DNA from: Haliclystus octoradiatus
Lineage: Eukaryota > Cnidaria > Staurozoa > Stauromedusae > Haliclystidae
Assembly (NCBI GenBank): GCA_916610825.1
Contig: OU744448.1
Coordinates: 11,102,125 to 11,166,124 of the forward strand
Direction: 5' to 3'
DNA length: 64,000 nucleotides
Part shown: positions 3,085-62,342 of the stretch, piece by piece
Position numbering within the stretch: position 1 is the first letter of the stretch
Layout of the letters: each line of letters starts with the position of its first letter
Notes under the pieces: generated by a model
The model's database searches: none
What the model saw: the letters and a program-made list of their open reading frames with translations, nothing else
What the model was told of the DNA's origin: nothing
Program-made: the position numbers and the translations under genes

Positions 3085-3182
3085 AGGTGGATTGTTCCAC
3101 ACCAGTTCTTGGTATAGTGCTCAATGAAATTAATCAGAGCATTTATATAAAATGAGAGTCAAAAATGAAACATTCTAGATTT

Positions 3183-3224
3183 CCGCAACTTCAAGTATCA
3201 CACCAGAAGGTGATCATCAGGCGA
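3183..3224 (-). ncRNA. Hammerhead ribozyme motif, left arm (decayed)
   Basis: Reading the minus strand: stem I TCGC / GCGG, core CUGAUGA intact, stem II UCACC-UUCU-GGUGU (closing pair U-U), then GAUA where GAAA is needed, stem III ACU-UGA-AGU and cleavage-site U. One core change suggests loss of activity. Confidence 0.5.
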
Positions 3225-3255
3225 TTTATTTCAACCATCCAAAAGTTGAAATAAA

Positions 3256-3297
3256 TCGCCTGTTGATCACCTTCTGGTGTGAAACTTGAAGTTGCGG
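3256..3297 (+). ncRNA. Hammerhead ribozyme motif, right arm (decayed)
   Basis: Stem I is TCGC (3256-3259) with GCGG (3294-3297). The first core is CUGUUGA (3260-3266), an A-to-U change from CUGANGA. Stem II is 3267-3280, GAAA is 3281-3284, and a 3-bp stem III ACU/AGU has loop UGA. The very short stem III is typical of type I hammerheads in Penelope-like elements. The core change makes full activity doubtful. Confidence 0.5.
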
Positions 3298-3331
3298 AAA
3301 TCTAGAATGTTTCATTTTTGACTCTCATTTA

Positions 3332-4494
3332 ATGCTGTATATAGTAGCATTAATATTGGCAACTATAACAGGAGAACGGAACAACTAAGTATATTTAGAA
3401 CATATCGAGGATCTGCTACGATTTATTCTTGCAATTTGATTGGTTAACGCCAATAACGCCATTTCACCATAGCCGAACTTGACCCCGTCGATTTCAAGAA
3501 ATTTATGAAATTACCAAACAACCGATAATTATTTAAATATGGCATTATAAACTGGCAAGTAATAAAAAGTAAAAAGCAAATATTTGTAGAGTCATATACA
3601 ATTTCATTGAGTTACTGTTTCATGCAGTGCCTCAGTTATTCAAAATGAATCAAATGGCTCTGGGTGAAATATCTAAGCTAGTAAACAAACATGTTTAAAA
3701 TGTATAGAAATATTTTGCACAAATTAACAATTCAAAAACAATTTGCCTAACTTTTACAGTATTGATAATTGTAAAAACATAATATAACTTCATTAAATTA
3801 ATACATTCCCTCGTCTTTTTATGGCCAGTTTTTTCAAGTTCCTAGATATAAGTATAAGCACTAACTGGCATAGAACTAGAAAGGAAAGCTTTCGATAAGC
3901 TATCAAAACCAAAACATAGGCTAAACAAATTCAACCGCTAAAATTTCAAATAATTAAACCATTTCTCCAAATGAAAGTCAGCAACATTAGATAATCAGTT
4001 AGCTAAAAAGTTATCATAAATTTAATAATCTGCTCTTTTAAATAGGCAATTAGCAAACATTTAGTCAATACATCTTTCTTAGTTTCATTTCTTTCTCCAT
4101 GTTCACGGCTTTTTACGAAATTCTTCAAATTATAAGTAAGAAACATTTTCTTTCCTTTTTAAGTTTTCCCAGTCAGTTTTCCATAATGAATAACTCACAT
4201 AAAAAATAGAAAATATTGTTTAAAGATAAGAATCCATGACTATGTAAGAAAACGATGTTAAGCATCCATTCTTTTAATTTCAAGAAGAGGAATATAAATT
4301 TCTCGATATCAATTTTTCCTCGCAGCTTTTAGTTGATTTCAAAAAAGCAAGTGTACAGCTCTCGACTCAGCTTTCTTCCGGTGACGTCACGAAAATAGAA
4401 GAATTGCATACTTGATCATGGATTGTAAGGTCAGAAAATGCTTTGAAAAAACGTATAAAACATTCACAAATCGGGGTTGGCTATGTTCTAAACC
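3332..4494. other. Unassigned intergenic DNA
   Basis: AT-rich, no supported gene or repeat seen. Confidence 0.5.
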
Positions 4495-12690: not shown

Positions 12691-13046
12691 ATATATGCTC
12701 TCCTCACTATTATTTCTGTAGTTTATCGAAAGTAATTTATATTTACCTATGAATACGAAAGTCAGCTTATGTGTGGTGTGTGTGTGTGAAGCCTGTAGGG
12801 AGCATGTTATTGAATGCATTTTTATTTCTGTAAAACATCAATGGTCCAATAATTTATATACAAAATATGCAAAAAAGTGTTAAATAATTATATTTCAGAT
12901 ATTTCGACAAGTTCTTAGTGAGTATAAACATATATAGTTTAGATTTAATAATAAAATTTATGTTTATCTAATAGCAGATAATATAGGGCTCTATGTCTTC
13001 ATTTGACAGAGCGGTAAATAATAATAATATATGGCGAAAGAGTCAA
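12691..13046. other. Unassigned DNA with short TG and AAT repeats
   Basis: Contains a short (TG)n at about 12771 and AAT repeats near 13017. No gene seen. Confidence 0.5.
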
Positions 13047-13172
13047 AGAATAGACACAAAGACGAGGCAAAAGCCTTGAGGCAAAAGGTGTAAACCGTCT
13101 GATGAACGAAAAGTAAACGCGTGAAACTCCGAGTAACGGAAACGGCTTTTGCCTCATCTTTGTGTCTATTCT
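13047..13172 (+). mobile_element. Small hammerhead unit with 29-bp inverted ends
   Basis: The arms 13047-13075 and 13144-13172 are inverted copies with 1 mismatch (left starts AGAATAGACACAAAGACG). Between them lies a hammerhead at 13095-13139, whose 3' side is only 4 bases from the right arm. This order, inverted tail then hammerhead then tail, matches the Penelope-like copy at 53231-54726. It is only 126 bases long and has no coding capacity. Confidence 0.7.
13095..13139 (+). ncRNA. Type I hammerhead ribozyme with minimal stem III
   Basis: Stem I is CCGT (13095-13098) with ACGG (13136-13139). Core CUGAUGA is 13099-13105. Stem II is ACG/CGU with an 11-base loop. GAAA is 13123-13126. Stem III is ACU (13126-13128) / AGU (13132-13134) with a 3-base CCG loop, and cleavage is expected after A13135. 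All conserved core bases are present. A 3-bp stem III of this kind usually needs dimerisation to be active. Confidence 0.8.
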
Positions 13173-13989
13173 ACATTTTTCGAGGAACGGATTAATGAAC
13201 GTAATTTATTATAAATATGTACACAATGCAAACCAAATGAGTACCATACTATCATAGTACCATACTAAGAAAAGGTCTGTCTGAAATTCGGGCTAGTGTA
13301 TGCGTGCTATATGGCGTGTGGCCTGTGTGGGTGGGCCATTTTTATGCTGTATTCTCAGTCGGGTTTAAAGACATTAAAGGCATAAATTTGCGGGCTCAAA
13401 GTTGGAAAATGATTTTTACAAGCCACGAGTAGTGTAGTTAATCAGTATGCATACTCGAAGATCGAGCTCAAAGGCCGGCACTCAATCTGTTATGCCTTCA
13501 AAGTTAAGATATTTCAGTTATAGTAACATTAGAATCGTTCTTATCCAGTCATCAGAATTCGCTTTCCGTTTTGCAATGCTAGCCATCAGGGAGTTGCACC
13601 CTACATTAAGCTCCACTGACTCAGTTGAAAGTCTAATTCATTCACATCATTTATTTCCGTATAATCACAATATTCATTGTTTTTAATTTTATTGCTATAT
13701 GTTTTAATAAAATAAACCAATATATAGTAGTGTAAATGACATGCAGTTATAAAAGTATACTTCTTATTTTATCTATCTACATATATAAAATAACATTATA
13801 TTAAAAATCTAATCCAATTTAAATTTTAAATTAAGCCAAATAAATAAATAAAATTCCTTATAAAAAAATTCAATTCATGTACTAGCTAATGTGTTAAAAG
13901 TTCCCATTACACTAATGGCATTGCTTCTCTGTATTGCAATGCCAATATTTTGGTACAGGAAACTCTTTGACCGAGGCTCGTTTGTGTAC
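13173..13989. other. Unassigned intergenic DNA
   Basis: Includes a small duplication (AGTACCATACT twice near 13240-13265). No gene seen. Confidence 0.5.
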
Positions 13990-37100: not shown

Positions 37101-40100
37101 TTCAAAATGGCACGTGAATTCGACACAAAATTCAGAAAATTAAATGATTGTTATTTCTGTTCAATCGATATTCGATATATGAGTAGAAGTATTAATAGTC
37201 CAGAGAGTATACCATTTAGTTAGTTATTATATCAAATTGATGTTGTCAAAGTTTAGGTTCTATCATTACAGTAATAAGAAAATATTGACGACGGAAAGTT
37301 GGGAGTTGGGAATAGCGTTCATTATGTTATTGAACTGCTGGAAGGCGTAACATTACTGCAAATTCAGAGGGTCCATTCCTTCTAGCTATATAGCTATCGT
37401 AAAATCCAGTTAAATTTTTCCTACAATTATTATTGAATCAATTTCTTTCTGCTTTGTCTGAAAATGAAGTATGATTATTACAAAATGAAATATTGCAAAG
37501 TCCTGCGAATTTTTTAATTGCTTCTTTTTAAAACAAAACATTTCAGGTTAACTCTATAGGCCTACTTACATAAACAGTTAACCACGTAATTACATCATAA
37601 CTAGGTCATATAATGATGGAAAACCGAGGGTAAAAACCACATAATAATTCCCTTACCAATTTCAGTGGAATAGAAATTATAATCCAACTTTACATCGTTT
37701 ATTTAGAAAAAGAGACAACTAAACTTAGAATTAAACTACGATTTAGAGATTTAAATCTAAAGAGAAAAAGTTTTAATAAGTCAACATAACAACTCAGGCT
37801 AAACGACTGATTAGAATTCTGATTAGAAAGATCAAGTTAAGCTCAATTAAGCGGCCTTCAGCCAGATATACACTGTTAATTATTGCAAAACTATTGAATA
37901 TTAAAATATTTAACTTATTATCAAACATTTCGTATGTGTTATAATTCATAATTCGGATATTCATATGGATTTAGCTGTTTTGTGGAGGTTAATAGATGCA
38001 AAACCAAGACCTTAGTTTGCATGTTTGGTTGTTGTTTGGAAACCCTTCCCTTGGCAAACAACAAGGTACAATTCGGTTTTCGTCATTTTTCTGAAACTGT
38101 CGATTGTGCAGTTAATTTTCTTCATAACATATACGCAAATGGAAATGTCAAATACCACCTTGCTATTTTCCTTGAATTAAAGAAAGCTTTCGACACCGTA
38201 TCCCAAAAAACCTGTTGAAGAAATTATCTCACTATGGCATCGGTAAAAATGAATTATTTTCGTTTGAATTAATTCCTTTATCTCTTTCCTGCAAAACACA
38301 ACTTTCGGTGTACCCCCAAGGAAGCATCATTGGTCCTCTGCTTCTCATTATTTTTACCAATGACCTTCCTTCTGTAATTAATTTCAAAACCAACATATTT
38401 GCTGATGATTACCATTTCAAATCAGTTCAAAGTCAACATGCTAACTGTGCACCTCCACAAAACTAAACTCAACCTTTTCAAATCACATTACTTGACTAAA
38501 CAAAATATTGCAGTTAATGGACATCAATTTGAACAATGAGCAAAATTTTTAGGTCTGCTTTTAGATGATCAGTTAAACTGGCGCGATCACATTTCTCATG
38601 TCTGTTTTATATTTCTCAAAATTTCTTATTTAACGATTCCGCAATTCTCTTTAATAAAATCATAAACTCAAAATTGTCATAGTGTTATGCCTCAAATGAC
38701 AAGGAGCACACAACATAGACAAATTCAATAAGATGTAACTGTAAGAATGTATTTCTTAATACGTCTTGTCACTACAACGCTCTCTCTAACTCTGAGAGAA
38801 CCTATATTGGGTATTTATTGCGGAGCAATAGCTAACAGCCAATCACATTATAGTTATTGTTAAAGTAATTGTTATATGTGAGCACTAGGCTTATTACATA
38901 ATTGAATATAATTTATGTAACTGGGGTCACAACTCAAATGCTAGCTTCTTGGACAAGCTTTATAAGCAATGTATTCGGATTATTATGAGTATGAAGCCCA
39001 GACCCCACACTGAACTTCTTCTTAAGGGGTTGTATGCTTAAGCCTATAGGCCTTCTCCAATTTAATCATATATGTATAAATTGAATGTTCTAATTTTCCT
39101 CTATACAAGGTAGGCATATTGTCCAAAAATTTTACCTTGTCTCAATCATACATTAAATTTAGTCCATCAAGTTTTCGAAAAAACCGTTTATCTACAGAAT
39201 CTTTGGAGCAAATCAAATCAAACTCTAATTTTACCTTTTCCATCAGATCTACAAGAAATGTTTGTAATCATCTTGCGGACCCTAAATAAACAAGCACTGT
39301 GCTTAAAGAGTACCATCAAGCATAATCATATTGAACATATTGTGAATCCGATACTATATATGTAAATAAGTAGGCTATACAGTATATTGTGTACTGTAAA
39401 ATGTAGCTATTCACTGTATTACCTGTGTTCACTTGATAAATGCTTGAAAGATATCTATCTATAACTAGCAGATCACATTTAAATGTCAAGCTGAAAAACT
39501 TGTTTACTCAAGCCCCCTTTTCCATTTCTAGCTCACTCATGTTAAGTGCTTAGCGATGCTAGCCAACACAAATATTACTTTCTTACATTGTTCCCATTGT
39601 CCACATGACTTCATCTACCATGTCTAGTGCAGCATGGACAACAAACTGATGAAGGGGACCATTGTCTTCTCTAATCTGGAAATCATCATCAACAAACATA
39701 AATTAATAGGATGTCCATTAATGGCACAAGTTGCAACACAATTGGAGGTTATATGATCGCGATAGGGTTTTTGAAAAACTAATTACAGTTTCGTTGTGAG
39801 GATAAGCATATGATTGATGATTATGTTTACATAGCATGTTAATCAGAAACATAAAAAAACATGTACAAGGCAAAAGGACACTACCAACAGCCCTTCTTTG
39901 AAAAAAGGCACTGCCATTACCCCCAAAAGCTGAAAATTTGTTATAATTACTCCTGCGAAAACAGTTCAGGAGTCTATGAACTGTTCATGAACACTTGAAC
40001 TGTTTTTCGTAGGGGTATATTCAGGGGCCTAATCAGTGGAGGTGCCTAACCATTATTTTTGATGTAGGGAAGTTACCTAAATGTTTTGGAAAGATGACAC

Positions 40101-53136: not shown

Positions 53137-53167
<31 letters not shown>

Positions 53168-54976
53168 ATAATAATGTTGATTTAAAACAAAACATCAATA
53201 TAGTGCTCAATACCGGTAAGCAGAGCTGTATAGATATAAAATAAGAAAAGAGACGTAAAACACCGCGTGGACAAAGAAAAACAAAGGGGCCTTATTCGAC
53301 GTCACCATGGGGAGTTACGATGGGGCAGAAATCTGCGAACTTGTTGGACTTTTCCTACTCGATACGATCACGAAAAAGTATGGCAAAGAAAGCATCGATC
53401 TGTACAGAGACGACGGGCTTGCACTGCTGAAAAATACTTCTGGCCCTCAAGCAGAACGAATACGAAAAGATCTAATAAAAATATTCAAAACCAACGGCCT
53501 AAAAATCACTATTCAGACTAACCTAAAAATAATCAATTTTTTAGATATAACGCTTAACCTCAAAGACGGAACATACCAACCATACAGAAAACCAAACGAC
53601 GAGCCCCTATACATTAATGCAGAGTCTAATCACCCACCCAACGTCATCAAACAGATACCAGCCTCAATCAACCAGAGAATATCTGACCTTTCCTGCAACA
53701 ACGATGCTTTTGAAAGGTCAAAATCCACTTACATATGCGCGCTAAGATCTAGCGGCTATGACGCCGATTTTACCTACAACCAACGACCCACCACCACTGC
53801 AGCTAAAAGGAATAGAAAAAGAAAAATAATTTGGTTCAACCCACCATTCAGCAAAAATGTTGACACAGACATAGCCAGAAAATTTATACTTTTACTGAAC
53901 AAACATTTTCCGAAACAGCACAAATACCACAAAATTTTTAATAAAAATAATGTAAAAGTCAGCTACTGCTGCATGGCAAATATGGAAACAATTCTGAGAA
54001 GCCACAACAGAAAATTATTAAAAGCCGACAACAAGGAACAAGCAACAAAACAATGCAATTGCCTCTCCAAAATAAACTGCCCTCTTGACAACAAATGCTT
54101 GACAACCAGCATAATATATAATGCCAACGTAACCACACCTGAGGACGCAAACGGCCACAACTACATCGGCCTTACTGAAGGAGCATTCAAAGATCGTTTT
54201 ACGAAACATAAGTCGTCATTTACCAACAGAAAATATGAAAATCGCACTGAATTGTCTAAATACATCTGGTCATTAAAAGATAACGGAAAATCATTCTTCG
54301 TCAAATGGTCAATTCTATCAATGGCAGAAAAAATGCCATCTCTGTTTAGAAGAAAAATTTTCTATAACCTTTTACAAAAACAAGAACTTATTAAATAGAA
54401 GATCTGAGCTGGTTTCTAAATGCAGGCACGAAAACAAATTTTATTTGAAAAATTTCAAGGAATTAGATAAAACATAAATAGAACAATACCATATAATAAT
54501 TTACTACGGAAACAAACAATAGCATATAATAATTTACTACGGAAACTAACATAGCAGCAATTAACAATAGAACAGCAATTTAATCAATAGGCGTGTAAAC
54601 TTTTATCATGTATATATCTTTGGTGAATTTAGAAATGTTTTTTATATGAATAAAACCGTCTGAGGAGCGCTACAGCGCGAAACTTCGAGTAACGGAGAAA
54701 ACGTCTCTTTTTTTATTTTATATCTATATATATATATAATAAAGTAATTGTGTGGGCAAAACATCAATTTGAGTGCTCAATGCTAAAAGCAGAGCAATAT
54801 AAATAGTAGATTAAAGATCACAAGTTTATTCCGTTACTCTGAGTTTCGCGTAAAGACGCTCTTCAGACGGTTTTATTAAATGTCATTTAAATGTTCATTT
54901 AATAAAACCGTCTGAAGAGCGTCTTTACGCGAAACTCAGAGTAACGGAATAAACTCGTGATCTTTGATCTACTATC

Positions 54977-55012
<36 letters not shown>

Positions 55013-61300: not shown

Positions 61301-62342
61301 AAGGCGAATCTGTCTATGGTATTTGAATCATCTCTATCTTCATGATTATGATTATATAATTTAAGATATAAAGTTGCCTGGTAATTAGATAATATATATT
61401 ATGATTTGGTTTGATTTGATTCAGAGTTGACAACAAAGTTATTTAAGAAAATAAAATATACCATTTTTATAACATTAATTATCAGGTTACAATACTAAAA
61501 TAACACTAACATAAGGCCCGGGGGGACTTCAATATTTTTTTTGTTGGGGTGCGCCATTTTCAGAAATTGGGGGGACGGCTAAGACATGCTAAGACAGATA
61601 ATTCCATACGCAGGTATAATATATCTGGATTTGATTGAAGTCAATGGCACAAAAGGGATATGTTGTTGATGCGTGCTTTCATGTGTGCCCAGCGAATGAC
61701 AGGTCACATGGTATCAACTAAGTTGATAATAATCTTAAAGATCAGGGTTAAACTAAAGGGGCTGGGGTTACAATTCACCCTAGAGGTTTCTTAGCCCCGT
61801 CTTCAGGGAAACAGTTTTGTCTGTCAGGAAATGTTTGGTATTTCAAGCAGTTTTCCAGATATTTTCTGTAACTATTGCCTCCTCTTTGGGGGAACCAGCG
61901 CCTTTAATGGGGGAAATCCCGGAACCACCATTTTAAAGAGCATAACAATCAAGTCATGTTTTAGACTTCTTAAATTCAAGGACTTACATTTTACATGTTC
62001 TAAGAGCGTAACAATTGTTTAATTATTTTTGCTAATTAGTGATCTGAAAGTTTTATCACACAAGGTCCGGTACTGGATTAAATAATTTGGTATGCACATG
62101 GCAGCAAGGACCAAAAAACCCAGACTGACCATTTCTCAACATGGTCTTAAGACTACTAGCTAGGCATGTCATTAAACAGATGACACATCAATCAAACATT
62201 ACATCTATGTATTACCTCCCCCCACTAAATTCCTTTTAAATTTATCCAGATATCCCAGATATCAGACTTATTTTTAAAATTTGATTCTTGTGTCTGATTA
62301 CAATGTTTTCAGATTGATTAAACATAAAAGAAAATTCAATTC
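61301..62342. other. Unassigned DNA
   Basis: Includes G-rich stretches (GGCCCGGGGGGACTT near 61516, GGGGGAAATCCCGGAACC near 61909) that may be ends of an unclassified element. No gene recognised. Confidence 0.4.

Follow-up and report, generated by a model that had tools for sequence, protein, structure and literature searches.

A 64,000-nucleotide stretch of the genome of the staurozoan Haliclystus octoradiatus (contig OU744448.1, assembly GCA_916610825.1), hereafter the window, carries insertions of Penelope-like elements (PLEs), retroelements that here combine a reverse-transcriptase-like frame, a hammerhead ribozyme motif and a short hairpin-forming leader. The window lies on contig C4 of the 262 Mb in 33 contigs that were searched. 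Across this genome the insertions often consist of two arms standing head to head, and they obey a near-exact rule: in paired copies the hairpin is nearly always found at one end only. The elements are probably autonomous and small non-autonomous PLEs inserted by target-primed reverse transcription at both DNA ends, with one start site on either side of the hairpin. The layout and the one-sided extension are already in print (PMC3846280, PMC11167929); the near-exact rule of one hairpin per insertion looks new.

One hairpin per insertion

The rule was assessed independently of the leader: family-specific arm words were searched, the presence of a leader on the outer side was then scored, and head-to-head neighbours within 4 kb were counted as pairs. 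In the family of the foldback adjoining the main copy of the window, 112 of 232 arms genome-wide carry a leader, and among the 100 arms listed all 29 pairs have exactly one (exact P = 1.8e-8, or 3.9e-6 after collapse to 21 distinct spacings). The arm spacings of these pairs range from 111 to 3397 nt and take 27 different values, 21 once those within 2 nt are merged; because the spacings largely differ, the junctions are mostly independent. Three (-,+) neighbours within 4 kb also occur among these arms, two of them in the array at locus L041.

Another family set gave the same picture in less strict form. Its arm word has 1253 matches, 530 with the last six bases of the leader outside, and among the 100 arms listed 24 of 29 pairs within 4 kb have one leader, 3 none and 2 both (permutation P = 0.0007); within 250 nt the figures are 21 of 24, 2 and 1 (permutation P = 0.0005). 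Some nested pairs may combine arms of different insertions. In the ACCGGT family, among the matches listed, a leader stands at one outer end in four of five close pairs of open reading frames (ORFs) and at neither end in the fifth. In 54 of 61 copies the leaderless arm stops within 0-6 nt of the hairpin base, and one apparent read-through (L063, minus 5528) is sited in a nest of insertions.

The initial annotation had reported a leader common to the copy at 53140-54740 and to foldbacks at 54741-55005 and 3112-3331. This is borne out by three matches in the window (Table 1), since 0 of 100 shuffles contained at least three. Genome-wide, the pattern GTGCTCAATN{4,16}CAGAGC has 2861 exact matches (1415 + 1446), against 0 in the backward-read control. 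A sample from the matches listed (first 6.6 Mb of contig C1), with identical surroundings dropped, yielded 102 distinct copies, including three from the window, with 50 distinct inner loops. The leader stem covaries: pair 2 is Watson-Crick in 40 of the 50 loops (shuffle mean 18.8; reached by 0 of 2000 shuffles) and pair 3 in 32 (mean 19.2; reached by 1 of 2000), although the loops are interrelated and these significances are therefore somewhat overstated. The outer GCTC/GAGC stem is set by the search pattern, and the covariation bears on the inner pairs. In all three window leaders the minus (sense) strand folds better, at -6.4, -8.0 and -6.6 kcal/mol versus -2.5, -6.3 and -4.0 kcal/mol for the plus strand, and the A.C that 8 of 50 loops have at the first pair (plus strand) becomes G.U in sense RNA. 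A coding role for the leader, which some sense frames (reading ...IEH...) might have suggested, was rejected because its varied lengths (23, 24, 25, 26, 27, 29 and 31 nt) permit no common frame. A tRNA-like (Pol III) motif, considered for its D-arm look, was dropped because the inner part differs by family.

The arms themselves are strongly biased in orientation. Based on 112 of the 113 protein-search rows, ORF neighbours within 6 kb are head to head in 19 of 22 pairs, direct in 3 and tail to tail in 0. A significant inverted partner lies within 2.6 kb of 61 of the 102 leader copies, which upholds for many copies the modular plan described initially, in which tails specific to a family recur inverted on the 5' side. 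According to the same description, copies lacking the inverted tail would make the layout a coincidence; the 41 copies with no partner leave that objection part of its weight, and by eye some of them consist of a left arm only, or are truncated or diverged. What was described as the "inverted tail" is where an inverted arm begins; such arms vary in length and extend up to entire ORFs. Both inner ends were measured in 59 copies, and after removal of four reference-limited ones the arms of the remaining 55 are equal within 5 nt in 30, longer on the leaderless side in 19 and longer on the leader side in 6. The main copy of the window has 28 nt on the leader side and ~1.5 kb on the leaderless side, and in the copy at L063:3766-5640 a leader-side arm of ~1.3 kb faces a leaderless one of ~0.5 kb. 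The inverted pseudo-long terminal repeat (pLTR) with one-sided extension, a PLE feature, is thus present here. By eye, and without count or control, (TA)n and (TAA)n adjoin many listed ends. L041 and L063 are dense insertion nests, each insertion going into the (TA)n end of an older copy, and L041 includes a local repeated array.

The place of the hairpin in the RNA was obtained by setting exact ACCGGT-family leaders (64 + 59 matches; 97 of 100 listed places used) against 34 protein-search rows with at least 88% identity. Among the matches listed, the sense hairpin lies 1446-1447 nt after query codon 1 in 11 arms, with one each at 1451 and 1607 nt, and in three copies it precedes codon 1 by 1104, 1098 and 1093 nt; for many of the 34 rows these matches, which had to be exact, include no nearby leader. 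Two hairpins flank one ORF at a distance of 2551 nt in one copy and 2700 nt in another, which has ~160 extra nt in its 3' part, and ORFs of related families that follow each other in direct orientation have spacings of 2525 and 2519 nt. These fixed distances after and before the ORF, together with the matching spacing of direct neighbours, imply that the hairpin recurs once in every tandem unit, following the tail and preceding the ORF. Tandem units with pLTRs, another PLE feature, are accordingly represented by hairpins on both sides of the ORF in two copies and before the ORF in a third. From frame lengths, the hairpin is estimated to stand ~0.1 kb before the open frame.

Insertion mechanism and competing explanations

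From the observed anatomy, head-to-head bias, one-sidedness, stem covariation and fixed geometry, the sense RNA would be made of tandem units of ~2.5 kb each, in the order ORF, hammerhead, tail (~35-45 nt), bulged hairpin (GCUCUG-stem-loop-AUUGAGCAC), a further 30-85 nt and the next ORF. An AT-rich target would be cut on both strands, and both target 3' ends would prime reverse transcription on this sense RNA, one at the 5' base of the hairpin and the other beyond it. The two cDNAs would run inward over unrelated distances and then be joined, which would leave two arms head to head and the hairpin at just one of the outer ends; a dimeric ribonucleoprotein may allot one start site to each end. 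The leader would then be present at one end because that arm starts further 3' on the RNA, and the separate 5' module proposed in the initial annotation gives way to an internal RNA hairpin. Whether PLE integration is obligately asymmetric, with a conserved bulged RNA hairpin parting two start sites of which one is used per side of the break, we regard as an evenly balanced question; if it is, each insertion records which DNA end was primed which way.

The purified PLE enzyme of the anole cleaves both strands, extends each of them and initiates at two sites inside the RNA (PMC11167929), in agreement with two-ended priming. Several points weigh against that reading. In vitro, the start sites of the anole enzyme are alike on both strands (PMC11167929), which leaves a rule of one start site per end unexplained. 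The 30 equal-armed copies, several with no loop or a tiny one, are what self-priming would yield, and the wobbles at the second and third stem pairs give the sense strand no advantage (7 T.G versus 5 A.C). In one copy a sense hairpin that by our reading belongs to a neighbouring insertion in L063 precedes codon 1 by 487 nt; the tandem unit order was derived from coordinates, not from base-by-base reading of junctions; and the PLE-like protein matched no NCBIfam, no PDB entry and no Pfam family above cut-off.

Self-priming (snapback), in which the antisense RNA or first cDNA would fold back, copy itself and halt at the hairpin, is a serious rival, though on balance an unlikely one. It was proposed for the Penelopes of Adineta vaga (PMC3846280) and accounts both for one-sidedness without coordination and for the equal arms and loopless palindromes. 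A copied arm cannot exceed its template, however, yet the leaderless arm is the longer in 19 of 55 copies, by far so in the window; the alignments behind some of the 19 are weak, and deletions after insertion may have contributed. Self-priming would moreover require a halt at the hairpin nearly every time, and in each of the three window leaders it is the sense strand that forms the more stable hairpin. A mixture of two-ended priming and self-priming is possible.

Clonal spread, whereby a finished one-leader foldback would be transcribed and recopied whole and its one-sidedness inherited, is quite improbable. Some places do share spacings, two of them 151 and another two 135, which may reflect segmental duplications, but the 29 pairs among the arms listed show the diversity of spacings given above. 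Selection of the layout itself had been proposed in the initial annotation and might act, for instance, through a structure formed by both tails; the plan does recur across families with unlike tails. Such selection is unneeded and very improbable: on the favoured reading the layout arises at insertion, where both arms copy the RNA of one family and so match automatically, and the arms within the 61 paired copies have drifted to a median identity of 0.868. Private mutations common to both arms, inspected by eye in a few copies, are confounded by the age of the copies. A random pick between two start sites, made independently at either end, although two such sites are known in the anole PLE (PMC11167929), is scarcely credible and is contradicted in this genome, since it predicts 7.25 pairs with both leaders, 14.5 with one and 7.25 with none out of 29, against 0, 29 and 0 in the foldback's family and 2, 24 and 3 in the other set, among the arms listed.

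The inverted-tail layout had initially been thought undescribed; it is found in PMC3846280, and its extension is related to start-site choice in PMC11167929. The A. vaga Penelope (EN+) has an ORF with two direct pLTRs and an adjacent inverted pLTR, one inverted pLTR bearing an optional 31-bp extension, and its authors favour self-priming on an antisense template (PMC3846280). Direct and inverted pLTRs, head-to-head junctions with palindromes and a one-sided extension are common to both systems, and the AT-rich targets of the A. vaga elements may be shared too. The extension is termed optional there, whereas here it stands at one end only in 29 of 29 and 24 of 29 pairs (among the arms listed), and the main text of that paper does not contain the word hammerhead. 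In PAc, a Poseidon PLE of Anolis carolinensis, the extension is tied to two reverse-transcription start sites bounding the tail (PMC11167929). The hammerhead in the pLTR region is common to PAc and the present elements, and its two internal start sites, start-site stem-loop and both-strand cleavage and extension would be shared as well, but PAc has an AC-rich stem-loop 111-118 bp into the ORF, in contrast to the bulged GCUC/GAGC hairpin estimated to precede the frame here. Metazoan retrozymes are likewise small non-autonomous hammerhead elements of animals, cnidarians included (PMC7229834); unlike them, the short copies here are head-to-head palindromes with one hairpin end, and the short copies examined showed no direct tandem hammerhead repeats.

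Neither a strict one-per-insertion rule nor a covarying boundary hairpin across many families was found stated in searches of the open-licence PMC literature. Thousands of leader matches in one genome, with a one-ended hairpin in nearly every counted pair, form an extensive in vivo record. Through them what was an "optional tail" becomes a quantitative rule by which random choice of start site can be told from coordinated or copied ends; they also provide a named RNA motif for mutation and sharpen the open question of how PLEs insert.

Hammerhead motif and encoded protein

Minimal type I hammerheads were reportedly described in PLEs by Cervera and De la Pena in 2014. Their core (CUGANGA - helix II - GAAA - helix III - UH, with helix I) is present here at 94 sites in 84 sources, and the motif recurs across many families with varied helices. 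After five sites of three other kinds were dropped, 89 were kept; helix I is built into the search rule and hence uninformative. In helix II, represented by 47 distinct inserts, pairs 1, 2, 4 and 5 score above almost every shuffle, the excess at pair 3 is not clear, and pair 1 is mostly T.T. Within the window, a relaxed scan returned plus-strand sites at 54656-54695, 54908-54947, 13095-13139 and 3256-3297, the last with a changed core base (CTGTTGA) that probably renders it inactive, as well as minus-strand matches at 61768-61810 and 39156-39201, which we take for chance. The predicted cut sites agree with the cleavage after A54691 and A54943 proposed initially. Rfam at gathering score found nothing in the 64-kb window, and RF00008 accepted 0 of 68 scored candidates genome-wide; it was also silent in 14 of 14 control genomes, so that absence is not shown.

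Several insertion junctions lie exactly at the predicted cut site, and 9 of 84 leader arms and 8 of 62 other arms end within 2 nt of it. Departures in one family number 34 at the cut site versus 10 and 21 at two control positions, while 469 arms read on (binomial P = 0.05 against the higher control and 0.0002 against the lower); three of the 21 departures are in the L041 array. For self-cleavage these counts are no more than an indirect hint. Hammerhead-cleaved RNA as the main template was rejected on account of the few arm ends at the cut site and the small excess of departures, and its use as at most a minor route is weakly hinted.

Hammerhead-like cores of other kinds were also encountered. 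L041:4288-4314 holds a classical core (CTGATGAGTCC..GGAACGAAAC), perhaps of a retrozyme-like or satellite element. A repeated core mimic (CTGATGAAGGCTAATGGCCAGAAA) beside (TA)n, apparently from another repeat family, occurs at L063:1337-1360 and 3261-3284 and also in L035 and L064.

The frame of the main copy, which we take to encode the PLE reverse transcriptase, is 5'-truncated and without its N-terminal half, and its C-terminus is unlike that of other copies, as after a frame change. A YRDDG reverse-transcriptase motif was read in it by eye. Pfam returned for the PLE-like protein DUF7155 alone (E 0.028, below cut-off). GIY-YIG-like motifs (YNA...NYIGLT plus invariant R and E) are present in four aligned rows; the domain had no Pfam match, and its best PDB match, the I-TevI catalytic domain, was not significant (E 1.3). 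The model of this domain (mean pLDDT 51.8, strand-strand-helices-strand order) is too weak for use, and that of the whole protein is unusable. Elsewhere, L063:5946-6956 (-) contains a 336-aa open frame that by eye resembles a seven-transmembrane receptor.

Insertions in the window

Table 1. Parts of the PLE insertions in the 64-kb window.
Feature	Position	Strand	Basis
Main copy: extension beyond hairpin, outer part of inverted arm, beside (TA)n	53167..53202	-	by-eye comparison with five other ACCGGT-family copies
Main copy: leader, RNA hairpin of PLE transcript (sense strand of inverted arm is minus)	53203..53226	-	leader match, fold, placement relative to ORF
Main copy: inverted (leader-side) arm, 28 nt of tail	53229..53256	-	27 of 28 nt pair with 54701-54728
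Main copy: stop-to-stop frame, C-terminal part of PLE-like ORF	53259..54398	+	YRDDG motif, GIY-YIG-like domain
Main copy: hammerhead ribozyme motif, predicted cut 54691/54692	54656..54695	+	motif scan
Main copy: tail, stops 2 nt before expected hairpin start; hairpin absent at this end	54692..54728	+	arm alignment
Second insertion (foldback): extension	54741..54772	-	by eye
Second insertion: leader hairpin	54773..54795	-	leader match and fold
Second insertion: leader-side arm, tail and whole hammerhead, inverted	54797..54882	-	arm alignment
Second insertion: leaderless arm with hammerhead 54908-54947, predicted cut 54943/54944	54896..54981	+	arm alignment and motif scan
3.1-kb foldback: extension	3087..3116	-	by eye
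3.1-kb foldback: leader hairpin	3117..3140	-	leader match and fold
3.1-kb foldback: head-to-head arms	3141..3333	.	arm alignment and motif scan
13.0-kb unit: diverged leader	12986..13012	-	window scan
13.0-kb unit: leader-side arm, chimeric-looking (one family, then another)	13013..13089	-	sequence match and by eye
13.0-kb unit: hammerhead (13095-13139) and tail of leaderless arm	13095..13172	+	motif scan

The main copy (~53167-54728) is a 5'-truncated element in which the reverse-transcriptase/GIY-YIG-like frame is followed by the hammerhead motif and by a tail running into (TA)n, with the leader (GTGCTCAAT..CAGAGC) and the 28-nt inverted tail copy on its left. Of the element start initially placed at 53140, the leader and inverted tail stand, while the (TA)n run at ~53142-53166 we take for target rather than element. 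By eye, the extension is without the inner palindrome that five other ACCGGT-family copies have. The neighbouring foldback (54741-55005) has arms of 86 nt each, 97% complementary and both with a hammerhead, the inverted copy lying on the minus strand at 54831-54870. Since this foldback begins next to the (TA)n in which the PLE copy ends, we read the two as separate adjoining insertions.

The 3.1-kb foldback and the 13.0-kb unit follow the plan of the main copy and its neighbouring foldback. For the latter unit, annotated initially at 13047-13172, the tail layout holds, and a diverged leader that had not been listed there was recognized. On its left side, 12945-13056 is 98% identical to L002 and 13090-13173 is 95% identical to L005, and by eye the inverted tail between the two stretches resembles the second family. 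In the leader-side arm (12945-13089), two families are apparently joined at a short common word, which suggests that the template was switched from the RNA of one family to that of another during insertion.
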